From positions 3,162,001-3,226,000 of the forward strand of contig NZ_UGYM01000002.1 of the NCBI RefSeq assembly GCF_900456975.1: a stretch of DNA of 64,000 bases, written 5' to 3'. Below, in pieces: positions 1 through 9,605 of the stretch (position 1 is its first letter; the number at the start of each line of letters is the position of its first letter). Below the pieces are notes generated by a model. It saw only the letters and a program-made list of their open reading frames with translations. It was not told the DNA's origin and ran no database searches. The stretch comes from Shewanella baltica. Its GTDB lineage: Bacteria > Pseudomonadota > Gammaproteobacteria > Enterobacterales > Shewanellaceae. The position numbers and the translations under genes are program-made.

Positions 1-354
1 GGATTAGAAGCGTTATATCAAGAATACAAAGATCAAGGATTAGTAATTTTGGGCTTTCCTTGCAATCAATTTGGCGCCCAAGAAAAAGCCGATGAGCAAG
101 GTATTCAAGCCTTTTGTGAATTGAATTTTGGCGTGACGTTTCCGCTATTTTCTAAAATAGAAGTGAATGGCGAACATACCCATCCACTTTATCAATACCT
201 TAAGAAAGCTGCTCCCGGTGTATTAGGTACTCAAGGTATCAAATGGAATTTCACCAAATTTTTAGTTAATCGCCAAGGCGAAGCGATTGAACGATTTGCA
301 TCGACCACGAAACCCGAAGCATTAGAAAGTAAAATTGCCGCTTTACTAAAATAA
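1..354 (+). CDS. Glutathione peroxidase family protein (3' part only)
   Basis: The reading frame is open from the first base of the window, so the 5' end lies outside it. About 117 C-terminal residues are present. The family signature LGFPCNQF is at the start and the conserved tryptophan motif KWNFTKFLV follows about 60 residues later. Members reduce hydrogen peroxide or lipid peroxides using glutathione or thioredoxin. The catalytic Cys (or Sec) lies upstream and cannot be checked. The next 1 kb holds three copies of a putative small RNA rather than another gene of the same pathway. The family is clear; substrate preference is unknown. Confidence 0.9.
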
Positions 355-469
355 TTTACTCGCTATCTATTTGAAATTTTGCGTTTTATAAAAATTTAGA
401 TTTATTTTAACTTTTTTATGGAACTTTAACCGTACAAGCCCCCTCAAATGTATTGAACAGTGAATGTCT

Positions 470-559
470 TTTTCATGTTCATCATCTCCCTGGGGCTTCT
501 AGCGCGGCCCCCTTGACCTAGGAATAGGTCACTAGGCAACCATTGGGTTGCCTTTTTTT
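470..559 (+). ncRNA. Putative small RNA, copy 1 of a four-copy family
   Basis: The segment has GTTCATCATCTCCC (477-490), then a GGGGC/GCCCC stem enclosing TTCTAGCGCG, a perfect 6-bp hairpin (515-530) and a Rho-independent terminator: GGCAAC/GTTGCC (535-552) followed by seven T. The same order of elements recurs at 811-926, 1255-1369 and 3790-3886. No convincing reading frame is present. The 5' end is a guess. I do not recognise a named RNA family. This copy lacks the leading C of the 10-mer shared by the other three. Confidence 0.5.
535..559 (+). terminator. Rho-independent terminator of sRNA copy 1
   Basis: Six-base-pair stem GGCAAC/GTTGCC with a 6-nt loop, followed by TTTTTTT. Similar GCAACC/GGTTGC terminators end the other three copies. 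Confidence 0.75.
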
Positions 560-804
560 ATCACAATGATTTATATGTAAAATAAATGTAATGTCTCATT
601 TCAACTGCTTTTTATCTCTCAGAAATTCTTTTTTAAACTTTTTGGTGTTTTTTTGCGATATCGATGAACTTAATTAAAAATGGCGACTCTGAGTATAGGT
701 AAGGATTAACGGATAAGATTAAATGCACCTTGAGAATGAAATATGTGAAGACGCAGTTTCATCTACTCAAATGACACAGTTTCTGTTTTATCGCATTGAG
801 TCTA

Positions 805-926
805 ATTAGTTGGTCGTTCATCATCATCTCCCTTTTGGGACACAATAGAAAACACGCTAGCGCACTGAATTCTACTTGTATCCCGCACTGATTTCCTTGT
901 GGCAACCTTAGGTTGCCATTTTTTTT
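805..926 (+). ncRNA. Putative small RNA, copy 2
   Basis: The candidate contains CGTTCATCATCATCTCCC (815-832), then a GGGA...TCCC pairing that brackets an A-rich stretch with CTAGCGC, and a terminator GGCAACC-TTA-GGTTGCC (901-917) followed by A and eight T. A weak -10-like TCTAAT lies just upstream (near 801-806), which would place the 5' end near 810. The 10-mer CGTTCATCAT at 815-824 is exactly antisense to the start-codon region of the porin gene at 8390-8399. The unit is part of the 444-bp tandem duplication. No coding potential is evident. Confidence 0.55.
901..926 (+). terminator. Rho-independent terminator of sRNA copy 2
   Basis: Perfect 7-bp stem GGCAACC/GGTTGCC with loop TTA, then A and eight T. 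Confidence 0.85.
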
Positions 927-1248
927 GCTCAAATTTCAACAAGCGCTAACGCTAGCTCATAGATTAATAAACTGACACGCTTTTAATTTTTATCGCTATG
1001 ATTTTAATGTAAAACAAATGTAGCACTTAAGTGTGAGCACTCAATATTTACCAGAAAAATACCCCAGAAAATATTTTTAAACTTTTTGGGATTTTTTTCT
1101 GATATCGGTGAACTTAATTAAAAATGGCGACTCTGAGTATAGGTAAGGATTAACGGATAAGATTAAATGCACCTTGAGAATGAAATATGTGAAGTCGCAG
1201 TTTCATCTACTCAAATGACACAGTTTCTGTTTTATCGCATTGAGTCTA

Positions 1249-1369
1249 ATTAGTTGGTCGTTCATCATCATCTCCCTTTTGGGACACAATAGAAAACACG
1301 CTAGCGCACTGAGTTCTATTTGTATCCCGCACTGATTTCCTTGTGGCAACCTTAGGTTGCCATTTTTTT
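1249..1369 (+). ncRNA. Putative small RNA, copy 3
   Basis: Near-identical duplicate of copy 2, displaced by 444 bp. The CGTTCATCAT element is at 1259-1268 and the terminator stem at 1345-1361, followed by A and seven T. The few differences between copies 2 and 3 lie outside the putative pairing segment and the terminator, which suggests both copies are kept functional. It is unrelated to the convergent aminopeptidase gene, whose stop codon lies 46 bp downstream on the other strand. Confidence 0.55.
1345..1369 (+). terminator. Rho-independent terminator of sRNA copy 3
   Basis: Same 7-bp stem and TTA loop as copy 2, then A and seven T. Confidence 0.85.
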
Positions 1370-1415
1370 GCCTAAATTTCTATACGCACCTAAATCTCTA
1401 TAATCGCCTAAATAT

Positions 1416-3305
1416 CTATAATATTAGTGACTTGTCCAATTGAACTTGAATCGAAGGATGATAACCTGCGCGAGCCTTTGTATAGATATCTTTTAATTCA
1501 GCGTGATATCCCGCGATTTGCAGCTCAGCATAAAGTGGCCGCACAAATTTACCGCGGCCAATACGTACTAGATAAACACTTAATGCCGGCAACACAGGGT
1601 CGTAATGATTGCGAATCGCCACCCTGAACCAATCACAGGCAATTTCCGCATTGGTCGATTGGGTGAATTGGAACATTTCATCCAGATCCATCAGTTGCAC
1701 TTGGCTGACGACTTCAGGCAATTGGGTCAGAAAATACTGCCAATGATGTACTCGCCAATCTTTCACGCTTAATTGGCTCGCGGTCGTTCCCTGTAAAAAA
1801 CACGCCAACGCATCATCGACTTTATCTAAACTCATGGATGTTGGTCCGCAATATCCCTCGGGCAAACCTTCGCCATAAATCCACGTTAGCAGCTCGGCTT
1901 CGGTAATCTTATCTGAGTGTAATAGCAGTAAGGTTTGCTGCGCGTATTCGACAAACACTTCGGTGGTAATCGCCTTAAAGGCAAAATGATCCACATAGTT
2001 GCGTAAAAATTTATCGAACGCCACTCGCCCTAGCCTGCGCTCGAGATCATGGACAAACATCGAGGCTTTATCATAAGTAAAACGATTAAAGGCAAGGTTG
2101 GGATCGCCCTGCTGCACATTGGCGGGCAAGGTTTGTTTATCCTTAGGCAAAGACGCCATTTCTTCTGTTAAGCGACCAAACTCTATCACCCACTCCAACT
2201 CTGCCTGCTCTTTGCCGTAAACCGCTTCCACGATACGGTTAGTAAAGTAAGTAGTGAAACCCTCGTTTAACCAAAGATCTCGCCAGGTTGCATTACTGAC
2301 TAAATTGCCAGTCCACGAATGCGCTAACTCATGGGCAACGGTTGACACTAAGCTTTTATCGCCGGCGATGAGTGTGGGCGTTAAAAAGGCTAACCGCGGA
2401 TTTTCCATCCCGCCAAAAGGGAAACTCGGCGGCAAGATAATCATGTCATAACGGCCCCACACATAAGGACCTAACAATGACTCGGCAACCTCGAGCATAT
2501 GTTCGGTATCTTCAAACTCTTTTGCGGCGGCCGCCAACATACTTGGCTCAGTATAAACCCCGCATCTTGGGCCTATCGCTTGAAAGGCAATATCACCGAC
2601 GGCCAGCGCCATTAAATGGGTCGGGATAGGTCGTTCCATCTCGAAGTGAAACACACCATTAAGCGGTGTGTCGGGATGATTCATCGCACTCATCACTGCG
2701 CGCATGCCTTTGGGCACTTGCACTTTAGCATCAAAGATCACTCTCGCCTTAGGCGTATCCTGCAATGGGATCCAGCTGCGGGCATTGATCGGTTGCGATT
2801 GACTGAAGAGATAAGGTAACTGTTTACCTGCAGTTTGCTCAGGTGCTAGCCACTGTAATCCTTGGGCGGCGGGAGAGGTTTGATAGTGAATGCAAACCTG
2901 TTTGCAAGGTGACGTTGGTAAACTGATGCATAATTTTTGCCCGAGAATGGAATTGGCTTCACTCAGCACAAAATCGAGCGGCTCCTCATTTTCTGTTGTT
3001 AAAACACTCACTGTATCAGTGGCATTGACGCTATCTGCATCATTCACAAAAGTAACCGCGAGTATGGTTAGATCGCGGCTATCGAGCCAAAGCTCTGTTA
3101 CATCGGGCTCAAGGTATTCCAAGGACAGCGTCGCTTTACCGAAAAGACGCTGCGCGTCAAAATCCACCACTAAATCCAAAGAGACATGTCTCACTTGCAC
3201 TTGTTCGGTATTAGCAAAAGAATGGTAATCTCGGGTTAAATCCCAAGTCGTTGCATCCGCTAGCGTACTCTTAGTTGGTTGTAACACTGTCGCCTCGATA
3301 TTCAA
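1416..3305 (-). CDS. M1-family metallo-aminopeptidase (leukotriene A4 hydrolase-like)
   Basis: 629 residues. The zinc site HELAH (about residues 325-329) is followed 18 residues later by Glu348, the HExxH-x18-E pattern of M1 gluzincins. The exopeptidase motif GGMEN lies just upstream (FPFGGMENPRL). Length and layout fit bacterial homologues of leukotriene A4 hydrolase: an N-terminal beta domain, the catalytic domain, and a C-terminal helical domain beginning around residue 470. No clear signal peptide is visible. The start used is TTG at 3305; the frame stays open upstream without a good ribosome binding site, so the start is uncertain. The likely role is cleavage of N-terminal residues from peptides. 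It stands alone, downstream of sRNA copy 4 on the opposite strand. Confidence 0.92.
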   Translation of the reverse strand: MNIEATVLQPTKSTLADATTWDLTRDYHSFANTEQVQVRHVSLDLVVDFDAQRLFGKATLSLEYLEPDVTELWLDSRDLTILAVTFVNDADSVNATDTVSVLTTENEEPLDFVLSEANSILGQKLCISLPTSPCKQVCIHYQTSPAAQGLQWLAPEQTAGKQLPYLFSQSQPINARSWIPLQDTPKARVIFDAKVQVPKGMRAVMSAMNHPDTPLNGVFHFEMERPIPTHLMALAVGDIAFQAIGPRCGVYTEPSMLAAAAKEFEDTEHMLEVAESLLGPYVWGRYDMIILPPSFPFGGMENPRLAFLTPTLIAGDKSLVSTVAHELAHSWTGNLVSNATWRDLWLNEGFTTYFTNRIVEAVYGKEQAELEWVIEFGRLTEEMASLPKDKQTLPANVQQGDPNLAFNRFTYDKASMFVHDLERRLGRVAFDKFLRNYVDHFAFKAITTEVFVEYAQQTLLLLHSDKITEAELLTWIYGEGLPEGYCGPTSMSLDKVDDALACFLQGTTASQLSVKDWRVHHWQYFLTQLPEVVSQVQLMDLDEMFQFTQSTNAEIACDWFRVAIRNHYDPVLPALSVYLVRIGRGKFVRPLYAELQIAGYHAELKDIYTKARAGYHPSIQVQLDKSLIL

Positions 3306-3769
3306 GTTCTGGGCTCTGGGTTCAGGGCTCTGGGCGCTAGCCCTCTAAGCTCTGGCTCTTAATTGTTAGGGTAAGTTTGAATACTTAATCGTGAGTTGTA
3401 TGCCGCGCAGCTGTGGTGCAACGCTTCATGACTTGTCACGGTTATAACTTATCACGGATTGTTAGGCGTTATTATCGACTGCACATTTGCTCAGAGGCAA
3501 ATCGTAACTGAGCTTTAAGTCAGCTTATCGGCACGTTATAGGCGAGTTTTTTGTAACAGTTCATCTTTGGCGGCGATCACAGAACTGCAATCGGTTTTCT
3601 TTCGTGATGCAAGATTTGCCCGTTGCGACGGCCAATAGCGATGAGCAAACTGAAGAAACTGAGAAAAATAGAGGCTCGCGCTTCTAATAAAAACAAAGTG
3701 CAAAATTATTTAAAATATTTCGCACTTTCTCTGAACTAATTTAAGGATGCTGAGTCAGATATTATGAAC
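3306..3769. other. Intergenic region, no gene seen
   Basis: No supported reading frame. It begins with a short purine/pyrimidine-biased imperfect repeat of GGGCTCTGGG-type units (about 3310-3345), just upstream of the aminopeptidase start. The rest is leader sequence of the aminopeptidase gene and of sRNA copy 4. Confidence 0.5.
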
Positions 3770-3886
3770 CGAATCTTTGTAATGAGTTTCTTCGTTCATC
3801 ATCATTCTCCTTTAGATGGTTTCTAGCGCGACCGTCCCAAGATTCCGAATTGGAATTTACAGCAACCTATTTAGGTTGCTTTTTTT
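3770..3886 (+). ncRNA. Putative small RNA, copy 4
   Basis: This diverged copy keeps CGTTCATCATCATTCTCC (3793-3810), the TTCTAGCGCG element (3821-3830), a small ATTCC/GGAAT hairpin (about 3842-3856) and a GCAACC/GGTTGC terminator (3862-3879) with seven T. A possible -10 element TATTAT lies near 3760. It has the best complementarity of the four copies to the porin mRNA: ten contiguous pairs over the start codon and six over the ribosome binding site. Conservation of these blocks despite divergence elsewhere supports a functional RNA. Confidence 0.55.
3862..3886 (+). terminator. Rho-independent terminator of sRNA copy 4
   Basis: GCAACC/GGTTGC stem (extendable by two T-A pairs) followed by TTTTTTT. 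Confidence 0.8.
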
Positions 3887-3953
3887 ATGCCTTTTATTTG
3901 GCATCTACCAGACAGAATGACCAAACATCATCGCCCAGATAAAACCCCAGAAA

Positions 3954-3980
3954 CAAAAAAGGACCTCCGAGGAGGTCCTT
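3954..3980 (-). terminator. Terminator downstream of pstS
   Basis: On the minus strand AAGGACCTCC-TC-GGAGGTCCTT is followed by a T-rich run, about 20 bp after the pstS stop codon. Confidence 0.85.
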
Positions 3981-3999
3981 GATTAACAAGCCGTTTGGC

Positions 4000-4971
4000 T
4001 TACAAGCGGATACCCACTTGTTCTAAATCTTTAGCAACTACGCTCTTAGGCAGAGTCACATAGCCATCTTTCTCAACTACTTGCTGACCTTGCTTAGACA
4101 GCACATAACGTAGGAATTCTTTTTCCATTGGTGCTAAGTCTTTGTTTGGTTGCTTGTTCACGTAAACATATAGGTAACGTGATAGTGGGTAAGTACCGTT
4201 AGCTGCGTTTTCTGCAGTTGCTTCGATAAACTCTTCGCCTTTCTTAGCAATCGCAACTGCTTTAACACCAGCAGTTTTGTAACCGATACCTGAGTAACCA
4301 ATCGCGTTTAGAGATTGAGAAACAGATTGCACTACAGATGCAGAACCTGGTTGCTCGTTCACGTTCGCTTTGAAGTCGCCTTTACACAGTGCGTGCTCTT
4401 TAAAGTAACCGTAAGTACCAGATACAGAGTTACGACCGTAAAGTTGAACGTCTTTAGCAGACCAGTTACCGTCTAAGCCCAGCTCGCCCCAACGTTGGAT
4501 GTCGCTGCTACCACATTTGTGAGTAGAAGAGAAAATACCATCAACTTGTTCAACGCTTAAACCTTTGATTGGGTTGTCTTTATGTACGAATACAGCTAAA
4601 GCATCGATAGCTACGCGAACCGCAGTTGGCTTATAACCATAATGTTTTTCGAACGCTTCAATTTCGTTAGGCTTCATCTTGCGGCTCATAGGGCCGAACT
4701 GTGAAGTGCCTTCAGTCAACGCTGGTGGCGCAGTAGAAGAACCCGCCGCTTGGATCTGGATGTTGACGTTAGGGTACATTTGTTTAAATTCTTCGGCCCA
4801 AAGTGTCATCATGTTGGCTAACGTATCTGAACCTACAGATGATAAGTTGCCTGACACGCCACTCGCTTTTTCATAAGTTGGCAGAGATTGATCAATCGAT
4901 GCCATCGCAGTTGCAGAGAATACACCAGCGGCTGTTAGGGTAATCGCGCCGACAAGCTTTTTCAGTTTCAT
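4000..4971 (-). CDS. pstS: Periplasmic phosphate-binding protein PstS
   Basis: 323 residues with a typical signal peptide ([20 protein letters not shown], cleavage near residue 25). PstS-type phosphate-loop motifs are visible: [20 protein letters not shown] and [12 protein letters not shown]. It captures inorganic phosphate in the periplasm for the Pst ABC transporter. No pstC, pstA, pstB or phoU is adjacent, so this binding protein is either an orphan or serves a transporter encoded elsewhere. It follows phoB and phoR on the same strand but has its own leader with a good Pho box and its own terminator, so PhoB control under phosphate limitation is expected. Confidence 0.93.
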
Positions 4972-5045
4972 TATGTGCTCCAGTAGTAAGCTAACTAATT
5001 TGTAACTTAAGTTTCTTCAGACGCAGCCAGTATCAATCGCTACAA

Positions 5046-5084
5046 TGACAATTCTATGTCTGTGATGTGACACTTAGATGACAA
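5046..5084 (-). promoter_or_regulatory. Pho box cluster upstream of pstS
   Basis: On the minus strand TTGTCATCTAAGTGTCAC (5084-5067) is a direct repeat of TGTCA units with 11-bp spacing, matching the PhoB box layout. A third half-site AATTGTCA lies about two helical turns further toward the gene (5053-5046). It is about 100 bp upstream of the pstS start. Confidence 0.7.
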
Positions 5085-5140
5085 TGCGTTATTTATCGCT
5101 TTTTTCTGTCACTAATAAACAACTCTCTGAACCTAGAAAC

Positions 5141-5167
5141 AAAAACAGGCCATAATGGCCTGTTTTT
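5141..5167 (-). terminator. Bidirectional-type terminator after phoR
   Basis: AAAAACAGGCCA-TAA-TGGCCTGTTTTT, a 12-bp stem with T-runs on both strands, 33 bp beyond the phoR stop codon. Confidence 0.9.
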
Positions 5168-5199
5168 ATTATTAATTGCGAATATTTCACTTAAGCAAT

Positions 5200-6498
5200 T
5201 TATTTCTTACGCTCGATAAGATGTAAAGGAATAACAAAGCTAAACGTACTGCCTTTACCCACTTCACTGCTGATTTTAAGCTCACTGTGATGATGGTTAA
5301 GCGCATGCTTTACTATCGCAAGACCTAGACCACTGCCACCGGTTTGCCTTGAGCGCGCACTGTCTACCCGATAAAAACGTTCGGTTAATCGACCTATGTG
5401 CTGAGGTGCAATGCCTTCGCCCGTATCCGTTACGCTAAAGATGGCTCCCGTTGCCATACTGCGCCACTGCACTGTGATTTTACCGCCGGGTTCAGTGTAA
5501 CGAATCGCGTTAGAAATCAAGTTAGAACAAGCACTTCTTAGCTGCAATTCATTACCGTGGGAATCAAGCCCAGGTTCGCAATAGAAGCTCAGCTCGTATC
5601 TGTCTTGTGCCAGCGCTTTAGCTTCCTCCTTGAGCACTTCCATCAGCTGCGTCATGTTCACTGTATGTTCGAGGTTGATATCGGCCGCATCTTCAATCCG
5701 CGATAACATCAATAGCTGTTCGACCATAGATTGCATTCGCCGCGTCTGCTGCTGCATTAAAGCCAGCGGTTTGACGTTCATCGAATCGGGCTCGGCCATG
5801 CTTTGCATCATTTCGAGATAACCCTGCAACACAGTGAGCGGCGTTTTCAGCTCATGTGACACATTCGCGACAAACTCTTTACGCATGCCCTCGAGCTGAC
5901 GTATACGGGTGATATCCCGCGCAATTAACAGTAGCTGCCTGTCACCGTAGGCCATGATACGGATCTCAAGCAAACGCCTATCCGATACCGGCGAAGGTAA
6001 CTCCAGCGGCTCTTTGTATTGTGCAGATTTAATATAAGCGGAAAAATCAGGATGGCGGATCAAGTTATCAATACGCTGGCCATTATCCTGCGGCCAAACA
6101 AAGCCGAGAATAAGCTGCGCTAACTTGTTGCACCATAAAATATTATGCTCTGAATCGAGCACCACAGCGGCATCGGGTAACGCTTCTGCACCTTGGCGAA
6201 ATCGCGCCAGCAATGCGGCCAATTGACCGACACGTCGACGATTCTTACCTTGGAGGCGATAAATACCGTTAAACACCCCTTCCCAACTCCCACTGCCCTG
6301 CGGCGGCGTGAGTTTTCTATCGCGCCATAACCAAAAGTTAAGCCGTGATAATTGTCGGTAATGCCAGCAAACCAGGCCTAGCATGCCGAAAAAGAGTATC
6401 CAGAGAAGTTTCCCTACCAATAAACCTATTAGCGCGCAAAGCAGTAGATATAAGGCTAAGCGCGTAAACAACCGGTACCCTGAATAAGAGTCAGACAT
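5200..6498 (-). CDS. phoR: Phosphate regulon sensor histidine kinase PhoR
   Basis: About 432 residues. Order: N-terminal membrane segments (about residues 10-45), a linker, a PAS domain (about 95-190), a HisKA domain with FVANVSHELKTPL (phospho-accepting His near 215), and an ATPase domain with NLISNAIRYTEPGG, DTGEGI and GGSGLGLAIVKH boxes. It autophosphorylates and passes phosphate to PhoB, and dephosphorylates PhoB when phosphate is plentiful. I chose the ATG at 6498; a TTG at 6510 would add four residues, and neither has a strong ribosome binding site. It lies 80 bp after phoB on the same strand and is probably co-transcribed with it. Confidence 0.95.
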   Translation of the reverse strand: MSDSYSGYRLFTRLALYLLLCALIGLLVGKLLWILFFGMLGLVCWHYRQLSRLNFWLWRDRKLTPPQGSGSWEGVFNGIYRLQGKNRRRVGQLAALLARFRQGAEALPDAAVVLDSEHNILWCNKLAQLILGFVWPQDNGQRIDNLIRHPDFSAYIKSAQYKEPLELPSPVSDRRLLEIRIMAYGDRQLLLIARDITRIRQLEGMRKEFVANVSHELKTPLTVLQGYLEMMQSMAEPDSMNVKPLALMQQQTRRMQSMVEQLLMLSRIEDAADINLEHTVNMTQLMEVLKEEAKALAQDRYELSFYCEPGLDSHGNELQLRSACSNLISNAIRYTEPGGKITVQWRSMATGAIFSVTDTGEGIAPQHIGRLTERFYRVDSARSRQTGGSGLGLAIVKHALNHHHSELKISSEVGKGSTFSFVIPLHLIERKK

Positions 6499-6578
6499 AG
6501 ATAAACCCAAACATCAGGCTAAATAAGAGGAGCACAAGATAGCCTAAAAGCTAACTTGTGCCTAACACTTATTCGGCA

Positions 6579-7268
6579 CTAAATGCGTGTAGAGAAACGA
6601 TAACCTGCGCCACGAACCGTTTGGATCAAGCGGTCGTGACCAGACTCTTCAACGGCTTTACGAAGGCGTCTGATATGCACGTCAACGGTTCTGTCTTCAA
6701 CATACACATTGGTTCCCCACACATTGTCGAGCAGCTGTTCGCGGCTGTAGACACGTTCTGGGTGGGTCATGAAAAAGTGTAATAAACGAAATTCGGTTGG
6801 GCCCATATCTAATACAGTATCGCCTACGCTCACCCTGTGGCTCACAGGATCGAGCATTAAGCCCTGCACATCAATGGTTTCTTCTAAACGAGTCGGTGCA
6901 CTGCGACGCAATACGGCCTTAATACGTGCGACAAGTTCTTTAGGGGAGAAAGGTTTAGTGATGTAATCATCGGCGCCGACTTCGAGACCTTTGACTTTAT
7001 CTTCCTCTTCACCGCGGGCAGTTAACATGATGATCGGAATTTGGCGCGTGAACTCATCTTGCTTCAAGCGTTTCGCCAATTGAATACCACTTCCGCCAGG
7101 AAACATCCAATCCAATAAAATCAGATCGGGGTAAGGCTCCTTTAGCAGCGCAATGGCCGAATCAAAATCTTCCGCCGCAGAGGTCGTAAACCCATGCTGT
7201 TCCATTACAAAAGTCAGCATCTCGCGGATAGCTAACTCGTCTTCTACTATCAATATCCTTGCAGTCAT
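6579..7268 (-). CDS. phoB: Phosphate regulon response regulator PhoB
   Basis: 229 residues, the same length as E. coli PhoB. The receiver domain (1-120) has the acidic pair ED at 9-10, the phospho-acceptor Asp53 in LLDWMFPG, and a conserved Lys in TKPFSPKEL. The winged-helix domain (about 130-229) has the DNA-contact segment [12 protein letters not shown]. The start [10 protein letters not shown] at 7268 is chosen over an in-frame start 30 bp upstream because it matches the family N-terminus. Phosphorylated PhoB binds Pho boxes such as the one before pstS. A TTGTCATAAT half-site around 7370 in its leader may reflect autoregulation, but this is weak. Confidence 0.96.
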
Positions 7269-7410
7269 AAGTGATTTTCTGTCAGTGAATGTCAACACGG
7301 CTATTATTAGTCATTTTTATTACAGATTTATGAATTAGCACGCCGTTTGAGCCATATAGTAGTAATATTTGTCATAATAAGTTTATATAACTGTTTGTTT
7401 ATAGCAATAA

Positions 7411-7434
7411 AAAAGGAGGCAATATGCCTCCTTA
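7411..7434 (-). terminator. Terminator of the porin gene
   Basis: On the minus strand AAGGAGGC-ATATT-GCCTCCTT is followed by TTTTT, 20 bp after the porin stop codon and inside the phoB leader. Confidence 0.88.
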
Positions 7435-7454
7435 ATTGAATCTTAATACTGGAT

Positions 7455-8399
7455 TTAGAATTTGTGTTCTAAGCCAACACCGATATATTTGTCATCATCA
7501 GTAGACGCTTCTAACGAACGATTGGTGTAGAAAGCGAAGACTTTAGTGGGTTTAGCCAGTGCATAATCAGCACCTACTGACCATGAATCACCTTTGTCTT
7601 CCATGTCTTGATATTGTGCTTTCAAAGTAACAGCATCGATATCATAGGCAGCGCTGAACAGGTAACCGTTAACACTATCAGTCGTTACAGGTAGCGCGTT
7701 TTTATACGTCTCTTCCTGTTGTTGGTACATACCACCTAAGGTTAAATCAGCGATTTTACCTTGAACCGATGCACGTAGGATTTCATAACCTTTTACATCT
7801 GAGTCATAAGCAATAGCAGCATAGATAGGTGATTTTTTCAGTTTAGCGTCACCGTACATAGCGGCTAAGCTGAAACCGTCTTGACCTTGTTGGTCAGCAT
7901 CACCTTCAGCAGCATAAGTCGCACCGAATACGAAACCGCTGATTGATGGAGATAAGTAAGTCGCAGTTTGACCTAAACGGTTGTCGCCTTTGAACAGGCT
8001 TTTTAAGTCGCCAGATAAATCGTTAAATTGATCAACGTTACCTTGAGAGATTTTTAACAGCGTGTCGTTACGACCAACTGAGAACGAACCGAATGCGCCT
8101 TTTAGGCCAACAAATTGGTTACGTGCTTTAAAGTTGTCGCTAGTCGCAGCACCTGTATCAACTTCGTATTCAACTGTGTAGAACGCTTCCAGCGAGCTAG
8201 ACAGTTCGAAATTACCCTTCACACCAAAACGAGAAGCATTACTTTGAATAGTTGTTGTAGCATCACCTTTCTCATCATTTGATTGAGCAGTGACATTCAA
8301 CTTACCATAAACAGTCAGTGGCTCAGCGGCATAAGCTGAAGCCAGAGTTGCAGAAGCTAGCGCAGAAGCAAGTAGAGTTTTACAAAAAACGTTCATCAT
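7455..8399 (-). CDS. Outer-membrane porin (Gram-negative trimeric type)
   Basis: 314 residues with a signal peptide cleaved after SAYA (near residue 25), alternating beta-strand sequence (FGVKGNFELSSSLEAFYTVE, FVGLKGAFGSFSVGRND) and a C-terminal Phe (GVGLEHKF), the recognition signal for outer-membrane insertion by the BAM complex. It probably forms a trimeric diffusion pore; anion or phosphate selectivity is only suggested by its position upstream of phoB-phoR. The ribosome binding site AAAGGA and start region AUGAUGAACG are complementary to the putative sRNAs at 815-832, 1259-1276 and 3793-3813, which points to post-transcriptional repression. No convincing Pho box was seen upstream. Confidence 0.9.
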   Translation of the reverse strand: MMNVFCKTLLASALASATLASAYAAEPLTVYGKLNVTAQSNDEKGDATTTIQSNASRFGVKGNFELSSSLEAFYTVEYEVDTGAATSDNFKARNQFVGLKGAFGSFSVGRNDTLLKISQGNVDQFNDLSGDLKSLFKGDNRLGQTATYLSPSISGFVFGATYAAEGDADQQGQDGFSLAAMYGDAKLKKSPIYAAIAYDSDVKGYEILRASVQGKIADLTLGGMYQQQEETYKNALPVTTDSVNGYLFSAAYDIDAVTLKAQYQDMEDKGDSWSVGADYALAKPTKVFAFYTNRSLEASTDDDKYIGVGLEHKF

Positions 8400-8410
8400 T
8401 TAATCCTTTC
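8389..8410 (-). promoter_or_regulatory. Predicted sRNA pairing site on the porin mRNA
   Basis: The porin translation start (AAAGGA, UUAA, AUGAUGAACG) can pair with sRNA copy 4 through ten contiguous base pairs over the start codon and six over the ribosome binding site, with a 4/5-nt internal loop. Copies 2 and 3 form the same ten pairs plus a shorter block. This is inference from complementarity alone. Confidence 0.4.
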
Positions 8411-8690
8411 GACGTTATGTTCGTCTTGGTTATTGGTTTGGAACGACCGAAAGTGTGCAATGAATGTGTTTCAGTTTTATTTCAATTGTGACCGTTTAGT
8501 GCGCGAGGTAAAAAAACTGACGCTAAGCTTGGCAATAAACCCAGTAAAAATGCGGCCTGCAGCTGAGCTAATTCTTATGTTACAGTTTAATGAATTCTGA
8601 TCCGCCGCTAGAAATTAGCTATCGAACACAGGTTTACCCCGCACAAACTATGCCGTAAACTGCCACTTTAATTTTCAATGAGCGCCTCTT

Positions 8691-9605
8691 ATGTGGTTTA
8701 AAAATCTTACTCTTTATCGTTTCAATAAACCTTTTGCCGTCGAAACCGAAGCGCTAGAAACTGCGTTGGCCGATTTCACTTTCTCTCCGTGCTCAAGCCA
8801 AGATGTCAGTAAATTTGGTTTCTCTAATGCTTTAGGCAAGAAAGGCAGCTCCTTGGTACACAGTGCCGACAATCGCCATCTGATCTGTGTAACTAAAGAA
8901 GAGAAAATTCTCCCAGGCCAAGTCATCAAAGAAGCCTTAGAAGAAAAAGTCGCCCTCATTGAAGATGAAGAAAATCGTAAGATGGCGAAAAAAGAAAAAG
9001 ATGCGCTAAAAGATGAAATCATTACTAGCCTACTGCCACGCGCTTTTTCACGCCGCAGCCAAACCCATGCTTTGATTTTGCCAGAGCTGGAAATGATCCT
9101 TGTCGACAGTTCAAGTGCCACTAAAGCCGAAGAGCTGTTAGCGTTATTACGTAAAGCGCTCGGTAGTTTGCCGGTGATCCCATTGAGCTTTAAAGCGCCA
9201 GTCGAATCCAATTTAACCGAATGGTTAAAACTTGGCAGCGCGCCATTACCTTTTGAAATGCAAGATGAAGCAGAACTTAAATCCGAAGCGGATGAAGGCG
9301 GCATTGTGCGTTTCAAGCAACAGGATTTAAAAGAAGATGAAGTCTTAGCTCACCTCGCAACAGGTAAGCAAGTCCACAAGTTAGCACTGCATTTCGGCCA
9401 ATCGATTGCACTATTATTGCAATCGGATGCCAGCGTTAAACGCCTTAAATTCTCAGAAGAATTTAGAGCGGGTAACGATGAAGTGGGCACAGACGACCCT
9501 ATGGCACGTTTAGATGCAGACTTTGCCTTAATGGGCAGCGAGTTAGTCGCCTTGATGCATGCACTCGTTGCAGCACTAGGTGGACTCGAAGAAGCACAAG
9601 TTTAA
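8691..9605 (+). CDS. rdgC: Recombination-associated protein RdgC
   Basis: 304 residues, matching the usual length of about 303, starting with the family N-terminus [15 protein letters not shown]. RdgC forms a ring-shaped dimer that binds double-stranded DNA without sequence specificity and limits RecA access; it becomes essential in E. coli strains lacking recombination or replication-restart functions. It sits alone, with a strong terminator about 80 bp downstream. The upstream leader (8400-8690) is shared divergently with the porin gene. Confidence 0.96.

Follow-up and report, generated by a model that had tools for sequence, protein, structure and literature searches.

The 64,000-nucleotide stretch of the Shewanella baltica genome analysed here (the window) contains four copies of a sequence family that probably represents sigma-E-controlled small RNAs (sRNAs) acting on the mRNAs of outer membrane proteins (OMPs), including that of a nearby porin (Table 1). 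The family itself, its structure, its promoter motif and its conserved complementarity to translation starts are computational observations. Judging from the sequence, the four copies look like a stress-switched set that would shut down OMP translation, that of the porin included.

Table 1. Features of the sRNA array, its predicted targets and the neighbouring genes. Positions are those of the window unless a genome locus is given.
Feature	Position	Strand	Details
Sigma-E-like promoter, copy 1	420..448	+	GGAACTT (420-426), N17, TCAAA (444-448)
Putative sRNA copy 1	454..560	+	5' end predicted from the -10; seed GTTCATCATCTCCC 477-490; CTAGCGC 499-505; terminator 534-553
Sigma-E-like promoter, copy 2	666..692	+	GAACTT, N16, TCTGA
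Putative sRNA copy 2	698..927	+	5' end predicted; seed 816-831 (10-mer 815-824); CTAGCGC 857-863; terminator 899-919
Sigma-E-like promoter, copy 3	1110..1136	+	GAACTT, N16, TCTGA
Putative sRNA copy 3	1142..1371	+	Tandem duplicate of copy 2; seed 1260-1275 (10-mer 1259-1268); CTAGCGC 1301-1307; terminator 1343-1363
Sigma-E-like promoter, copy 4	3733..3759	+	GAACTA, N16, TCAGA
Putative sRNA copy 4	3765..3887	+	5' end predicted; seed 3794-3810 (10-mer 3793-3802); CTAGCGC 3823-3829; terminator 3861-3880
pstS	4000-4971		Neighbour
phoR	5200-6510		Neighbour
phoB	6579-7298		Neighbour
Porin gene (Porin_4 PF13609), predicted target	7455..8399	-	Match in 128 of 129 genus genomes
Porin mRNA target site	8390..8409	-	AAAGGA (8404-8409), spacer UUAA, AUGAUGAACG (8390-8399)
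28-aa ORF (MMNTELKMALGTTLVIALFFSAFFVSIF)	L172/L338, G000:C2:2238028-2238045	-	Strong Shine-Dalgarno (SD) sequence

The earlier note on this DNA had described a 10-mer in copies 2, 3 and 4 as exactly antisense to the porin start, which was confirmed: CGTTCATCAT has four sites in the window, against 0.09 expected from shuffles, three of them on the plus strand in these copies and one on the minus strand at 8390-8399, as the complement of the porin start. Copy 1 has only the 9-mer GTTCATCAT, at 477-485. The six-base pairing proposed between copy 4 and the ribosome binding site AAAGGA was also found, as UCCUUU at 3808-3813 can pair with that site, leaving a 5x4 internal loop, and in copies 2 and 3 CCUUU is available for the same pairing. 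The 9-mer alone is not rare, since ATGATGAAC occurs 114 times in the genome versus 20 for the reversed pattern. When combined with the C/U tract (pattern GTTCATCATN{0,6}CTCC) it has six genome sites, four of them in the sRNAs and the other two, on the opposite strand, at the starts of ompW and of a 28-aa ORF.

The distribution of the family was addressed by blastn of 129 genus genomes with one copy as query, not selected on the motif, and matches were found in 60 of them. Many of the weaker matches start at query position 140-146, which corresponds to the seed, and extend to the terminator; other weaker ones cover the terminator end only (query 178 or later). From the 128 porin-bearing genomes 80 porin neighbourhoods were fetched, making 81 with the window, and 72 of these contained a total of 234 sRNA copies, a count that rests, wherever it is used, on a filter composed of TTCATCAT, a C/U tract and a terminator. 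Neighbourhoods with copies carry one to six, on the strand opposite to the porin and 4.5-13.7 kb from its start (median 7.6 kb). The other nine neighbourhoods have none, and at least three of these genomes (G009, G127 and G011) carry copies elsewhere. Within the window, copies 2 and 3 (630-1373) form a tandem duplication with 97% identity over 300 nt and a spacing of 444, promoter included.

The conserved core of the family is GUUCAUCAU plus the C/U tract. The G of GTTC is kept in 219 of the 234 copies, and the base before GTTC is T in 161, C in 64, G in 7 and A in 2. The pairing segment had been called the most conserved part outside the terminator, and this stood for the segment but not for the 10-mer as a unit, whose preceding C is found in only those 64 copies. 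A covariance model (R1) retrieved exactly the four window copies in the S. baltica genome and matched 30 of 394 sampled genomes of the order, all from one genus of 114; no family match outside Shewanella was found in this sample, searched with stricter Infernal filters that lose weak matches. Part of copy 4 has exact matches in ten named Shewanella records. Rfam 15 at gathering score gave no match for the copies over the whole window, and at E up to 5 gave four hits in positions 355-3960 (best E 0.14), none of them to the MicA, RybB, VrrA, MicV, MicF or OmrA families. The family was not found in the openly accessible literature covered, which included PMC3160321, PMC3575234, PMC5471319, PMC4336711, PMC8552667, PMC7602753, PMC2659441 and PMC5826389.

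Sigma-E-like promoters, overlooked in the earlier note, were found within 200 nt upstream of 231 of the 234 copies, versus 277 of 2340 order-1 Markov controls. The rule used was a GAACTT-like box, 15-18 nt and TCNNA, in a scan that requires TC..A and favours GAAC. The spacer is 16 nt in 222 of the 231, and the distance to the seed is very different among copies. In 68 non-redundant promoters the G, A, A and C are present at 99, 100, 100 and 100%, and both GAAC and the -10 are nearly invariant with a more variable spacer, a pattern partly forced by the scan rule. Inspection by eye located GAACTT-N16-TCTAC upstream of rpoE in the same genome, with the -35 and spacing of the sRNA promoters; it was missed by the TCNNA rule because TCTAC ends in C. 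This rpoE motif is described for 17 Shewanella strains, with RpoE autoregulated, in PMC4336711. The sRNA promoters and the motif upstream of rpoE point to RpoE rather than PhoB as the probable regulator, and the presence of such promoters in nearly all copies makes envelope stress a likelier trigger than phosphate.

Evidence for a structured RNA came from copies picked for diversity (16 + 38 + 21), of which 46 entered alignment A1 and 28 alignment A2, with L131:5271-5356 in neither. A1 consists mostly of the two shorter types. Covariation was seen in it for a hairpin of 6 bp and a terminator stem of 7 bp: compensatory changes occur in 11 of 13 pairs, and the covariation score of 0.559 exceeds those of the shuffles (0.269; 0/500 reach 0.559) and of the slid controls (no more than 0.161). 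RNAalifold gave little structure for the long type besides the terminator and a 2-bp stem. A Rho-independent terminator with a U tail is present, the terminator being also part of the rule by which the 234 copies were selected. The motif CUAGCGC occurs in 212 of the 234 copies (type A 40/40, where the type rule demands it; type C 48/67; type B 124/127), and six neighbourhoods have no copy carrying it. It usually lies in the hairpin loop of the short types, on the stem that covaries, with mean predicted unpaired probabilities of 0.86 (A), 0.76 (C) and 0.54 (B), so that a loop position holds for the short types only. No partner was found for this motif, which may be a second pairing site or a protein site of the sRNAs. 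Several long copies in other genomes also bear UUCAUCA and CUAACCGAAUUAG motifs.

Folds were predicted for 218 distinct transcripts, with the 5' end assumed 6 nt past the -10. The AUCAUCAUC part of the seed has a mean predicted unpaired probability of 0.88, versus 0.71 with shuffled leaders, and the seed GUUC is mostly paired within the sRNA (0.27 unpaired versus 0.46 with shuffled leaders), its value falling below the mean of its own shuffles in 158 of the 218. The predicted partner is the first 15 nt of the transcript, with a pairing probability of 0.62 on average, 1.0 in copy 1, 0.93 in copy 4 and about half in copies 2 and 3; the predicted unpaired probability of GUUC is about 0.5 for copies 2 and 3 but close to 0 for copies 1 and 4. 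In 154 of 231 copies UGAAC appears no more than 15 nt past the -10. Since GUUC is predicted to be paired, only part of the 10-mer would be freely available to start pairing, a limit that is most marked in copies 1 and 4. A recurrent 5' block directly past the -10 (e.g. window 3760-3775) reads AUGAACCGAAUU or GUAACAGAUU/GUAAGGAUU.

Targets were ranked among 661 start regions, taken from the window, from a set of named candidates and from 15% of the genome, where ORFs of 100 aa or more were used; row L164 was excluded for its wrong orientation, and what is apparently the same gene enters the background from L196. With seed-only sRNA segments, the porin came 13th for copy 1 and 5th for both copy 2 and copy 4 by gapless helix; by duplex energy it came 34th, 53rd and 8th for these three copies. 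These segments replaced 50-60-nt ones, a change by which the porin ranks rose, as the longer segments had placed it 395th, 103rd, 103rd and 30th (copies 1-4) with long, doubtful duplexes. With the seed-only segments, the helix ranks of OmpW for copies 1, 2 and 4 were 3, 2 and 1 and its energy ranks 14, 2 and 2; the 28-aa ORF headed the duplex-energy list for copies 2 and 4. As the background amounts to roughly 16% of the genome, between about 12 and 60 sites in the whole genome may equal or exceed the porin in pairing, depending on the copy.

In each of the 72 genomes whose fetched stretch includes both partners, the porin start region (anywhere in -25..+20) is predicted to form 8 or more contiguous pairs with the sRNAs of the same genome, so the loss of pairing where both partners are conserved, named in the earlier note as counting against the idea, was not seen. 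Against a background of 650 starts, taken from the S. baltica genome only with simple ORF calls, the porin has a median helix rank of 6 and a median duplex rank of 25, and is in the top 5% by duplex energy in 42 of the 72 genomes; the corresponding values for OmpW in 63 genomes are 7, 28 and 34 of 63. Porin start and seed do not covary, the genome G092 apart, because both are nearly invariant, and coding and ribosome binding act as further constraints on the porin start. In the predicted fold of the porin mRNA AUGAUG and much of the SD are paired, which counts against easy access. An A/C-rich porin 5' UTR (AACCAAUAACCAAGACG...CGUC) lies just upstream of the SD at window 8400-8440 (minus strand) and is recognisable in most of the 81 neighbourhoods; we assume that it could be an Hfq-binding (ARN) stretch.

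More generally, the genome has SD plus AUGAUGAA in 25 different sequence contexts, of which two are antisense to the sRNAs. An export signal was recognised by eye in 13 of the 18 ORFs of at least 100 aa at these sites, porin and OmpW included, and among the others are ORFs that we take to be OmpA-like, NrfA-like and lipoproteins. As a pointer to a wider target set this is suggestive only, because AUGAA starts are typical of exported proteins.

These target data bear on an alternative that we regard as possible but rather unlikely, in which the same sigma-E sRNA family exists but the adjacent porin is not a physiological target, its match simply following from its SD-AUGAUGAAC start, and OmpW and other exported proteins are the main targets. 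In its favour, OmpW outranks the porin in helix length with copies 1, 2 and 4, a result by which a privileged place of the porin among the targets is not supported; the 28-aa ORF takes first place by duplex energy; and such starts are common among exported proteins. Yet the porin pairing is kept more widely than that of OmpW, which reaches at least 8 bp in 52 of 63 genomes and has 6 bp or fewer in the remaining 11. In G092, where the porin start is altered, 10 pairs are retained in a shifted register (duplex-energy rank 93), and porin codon 3 is biased to AAC, used in 75 of 79 Asn cases versus 648 of 1105 elsewhere in the same genes, although the species compared are related and not independent.

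Two further readings concern the nature of the array itself. Because the array and the porin flank pstS and phoB/phoR, they could belong to the Pho regulon, with phosphate-responsive sRNAs; we consider this very improbable in view of the sigma-E-like promoters. A scan of window positions 1-9000 with a Pho-box consensus and a threshold of at least 14/18 gave four weak Pho-box-like matches, upstream of pstS (5062, 5084), upstream of phoB (7336) and inside the porin (8060), and none at the sRNA promoters, and Pho regulon membership was set aside. Of the phosphate- or envelope-stress circuit suggested in the earlier note, the envelope half fits the sigma-E-like promoters and the phosphate half is not supported; as a whole, that interpretation was partly supported, in the sRNA family, the porin complementarity and the envelope stress. 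Still less credible is a coding function of the conserved segments, for leader peptides or small proteins. Some copies do have a frame running from a 5' AUGAAC through the seed (by eye), and the seed is in frame 0 of an AUGAAC start in 79 of 160 copies, 55 of which are open through it. But the other 81 copies carry the seed in frame 1 or 2, the total with a frame that stays open across the seed is 75 of 160 versus 1316 of 3200 for shuffled leaders, and the hairpin covaries in the manner of an RNA; this reading was also set aside.

Under the preferred reading, a sigma-E sRNA family with the porin among its targets, the four copies would be Shewanella-specific, multicopy, trans-acting sRNAs transcribed via RpoE (sigma-E), the envelope-stress sigma factor. 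Each would consist of a leader, in many copies folding back on the seed GUUC; the seed AUCAUC(AUC)UCC, for the most part single-stranded; a middle region in which CUAGCGC is usually present, within a hairpin loop where the RNA is of one of the two shorter types; and a Rho-independent terminator. Upon envelope stress the seed would pair with the SD-AUGAUGAA(C) starts of OMP mRNAs, namely those of the linked porin, OmpW and probably others, and keep ribosomes from loading, probably with the help of Hfq. From these features we infer that the loci are transcribed, that they depend on sigma-E in vivo, that Hfq takes part and that the targets are repressed.

Several known sRNAs offer comparisons. 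MicF and OmrA act on porin and OMP mRNAs near the start, under other regulators, and the Shewanella copies have no Rfam match to them. With MicA and RybB of E. coli and Salmonella they share, as far as sequence can tell, a sigma-E-like promoter and a region antisense to OMP translation starts; unlike these, they have no Rfam match, an internal seed (that of RybB is at the 5' end) and several tandem copies. MicA and RybB are described as repressing major OMPs (PMC7602753), and for E. coli OmpA or OmpW is listed among the proteins under micA and rybB control (PMC2659441). According to the same 2009 study, micA and rybB were not found in S. oneidensis, where porin control may work differently (PMC2659441). 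VrrA and MicV of Vibrio cholerae are described as a sigma-E-dependent pair with one common seed that represses OmpA and OmpT (PMC7602753); the Shewanella sRNAs likewise have sigma-E-like promoters and a common seed, but have no Rfam match and number up to six per neighbourhood. LhrC of Listeria monocytogenes, according to PMC4132741, is a multicopy sRNA induced by cell-envelope stress under control of the LisRK two-component system. It resembles the Shewanella array in being multicopy and, if the predicted stress link holds, related to envelope stress; it differs in its Gram-positive host and in depending on LisRK rather than sigma-E, the sequence relation having been compared via Rfam only. 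The best reading is that the Shewanella family would function like MicA, RybB and VrrA, yet is a separate family with a different copy number and architecture.

The four copies may thus fill in Shewanella the place that MicA and RybB have in E. coli. A broader proposal, tentative when its three parts are taken jointly, is that the MicA/RybB arm was replaced by an expandable sRNA array of the genus's own, with one to six copies per neighbourhood; that the seed recognises the SD-AUGAUGAA signature at starts of exported proteins, with gating by the 5' end of the sRNA itself, which imitates the target (UGAAC, two thirds of copies); and that envelope stress is tied in this way to porins, OmpW and respiratory exported proteins such as an NrfA-like cytochrome, with CUAGCGC as a second interaction site. 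The family thereby offers a specific candidate for the RNA arm that the sigma-E response has seemed to lack in Shewanella, a genus used for extracellular electron transfer that has respiratory machinery in its outer membrane, and the array of one to six diverging copies is a good system for the multiplication and specialisation of sRNA copies.
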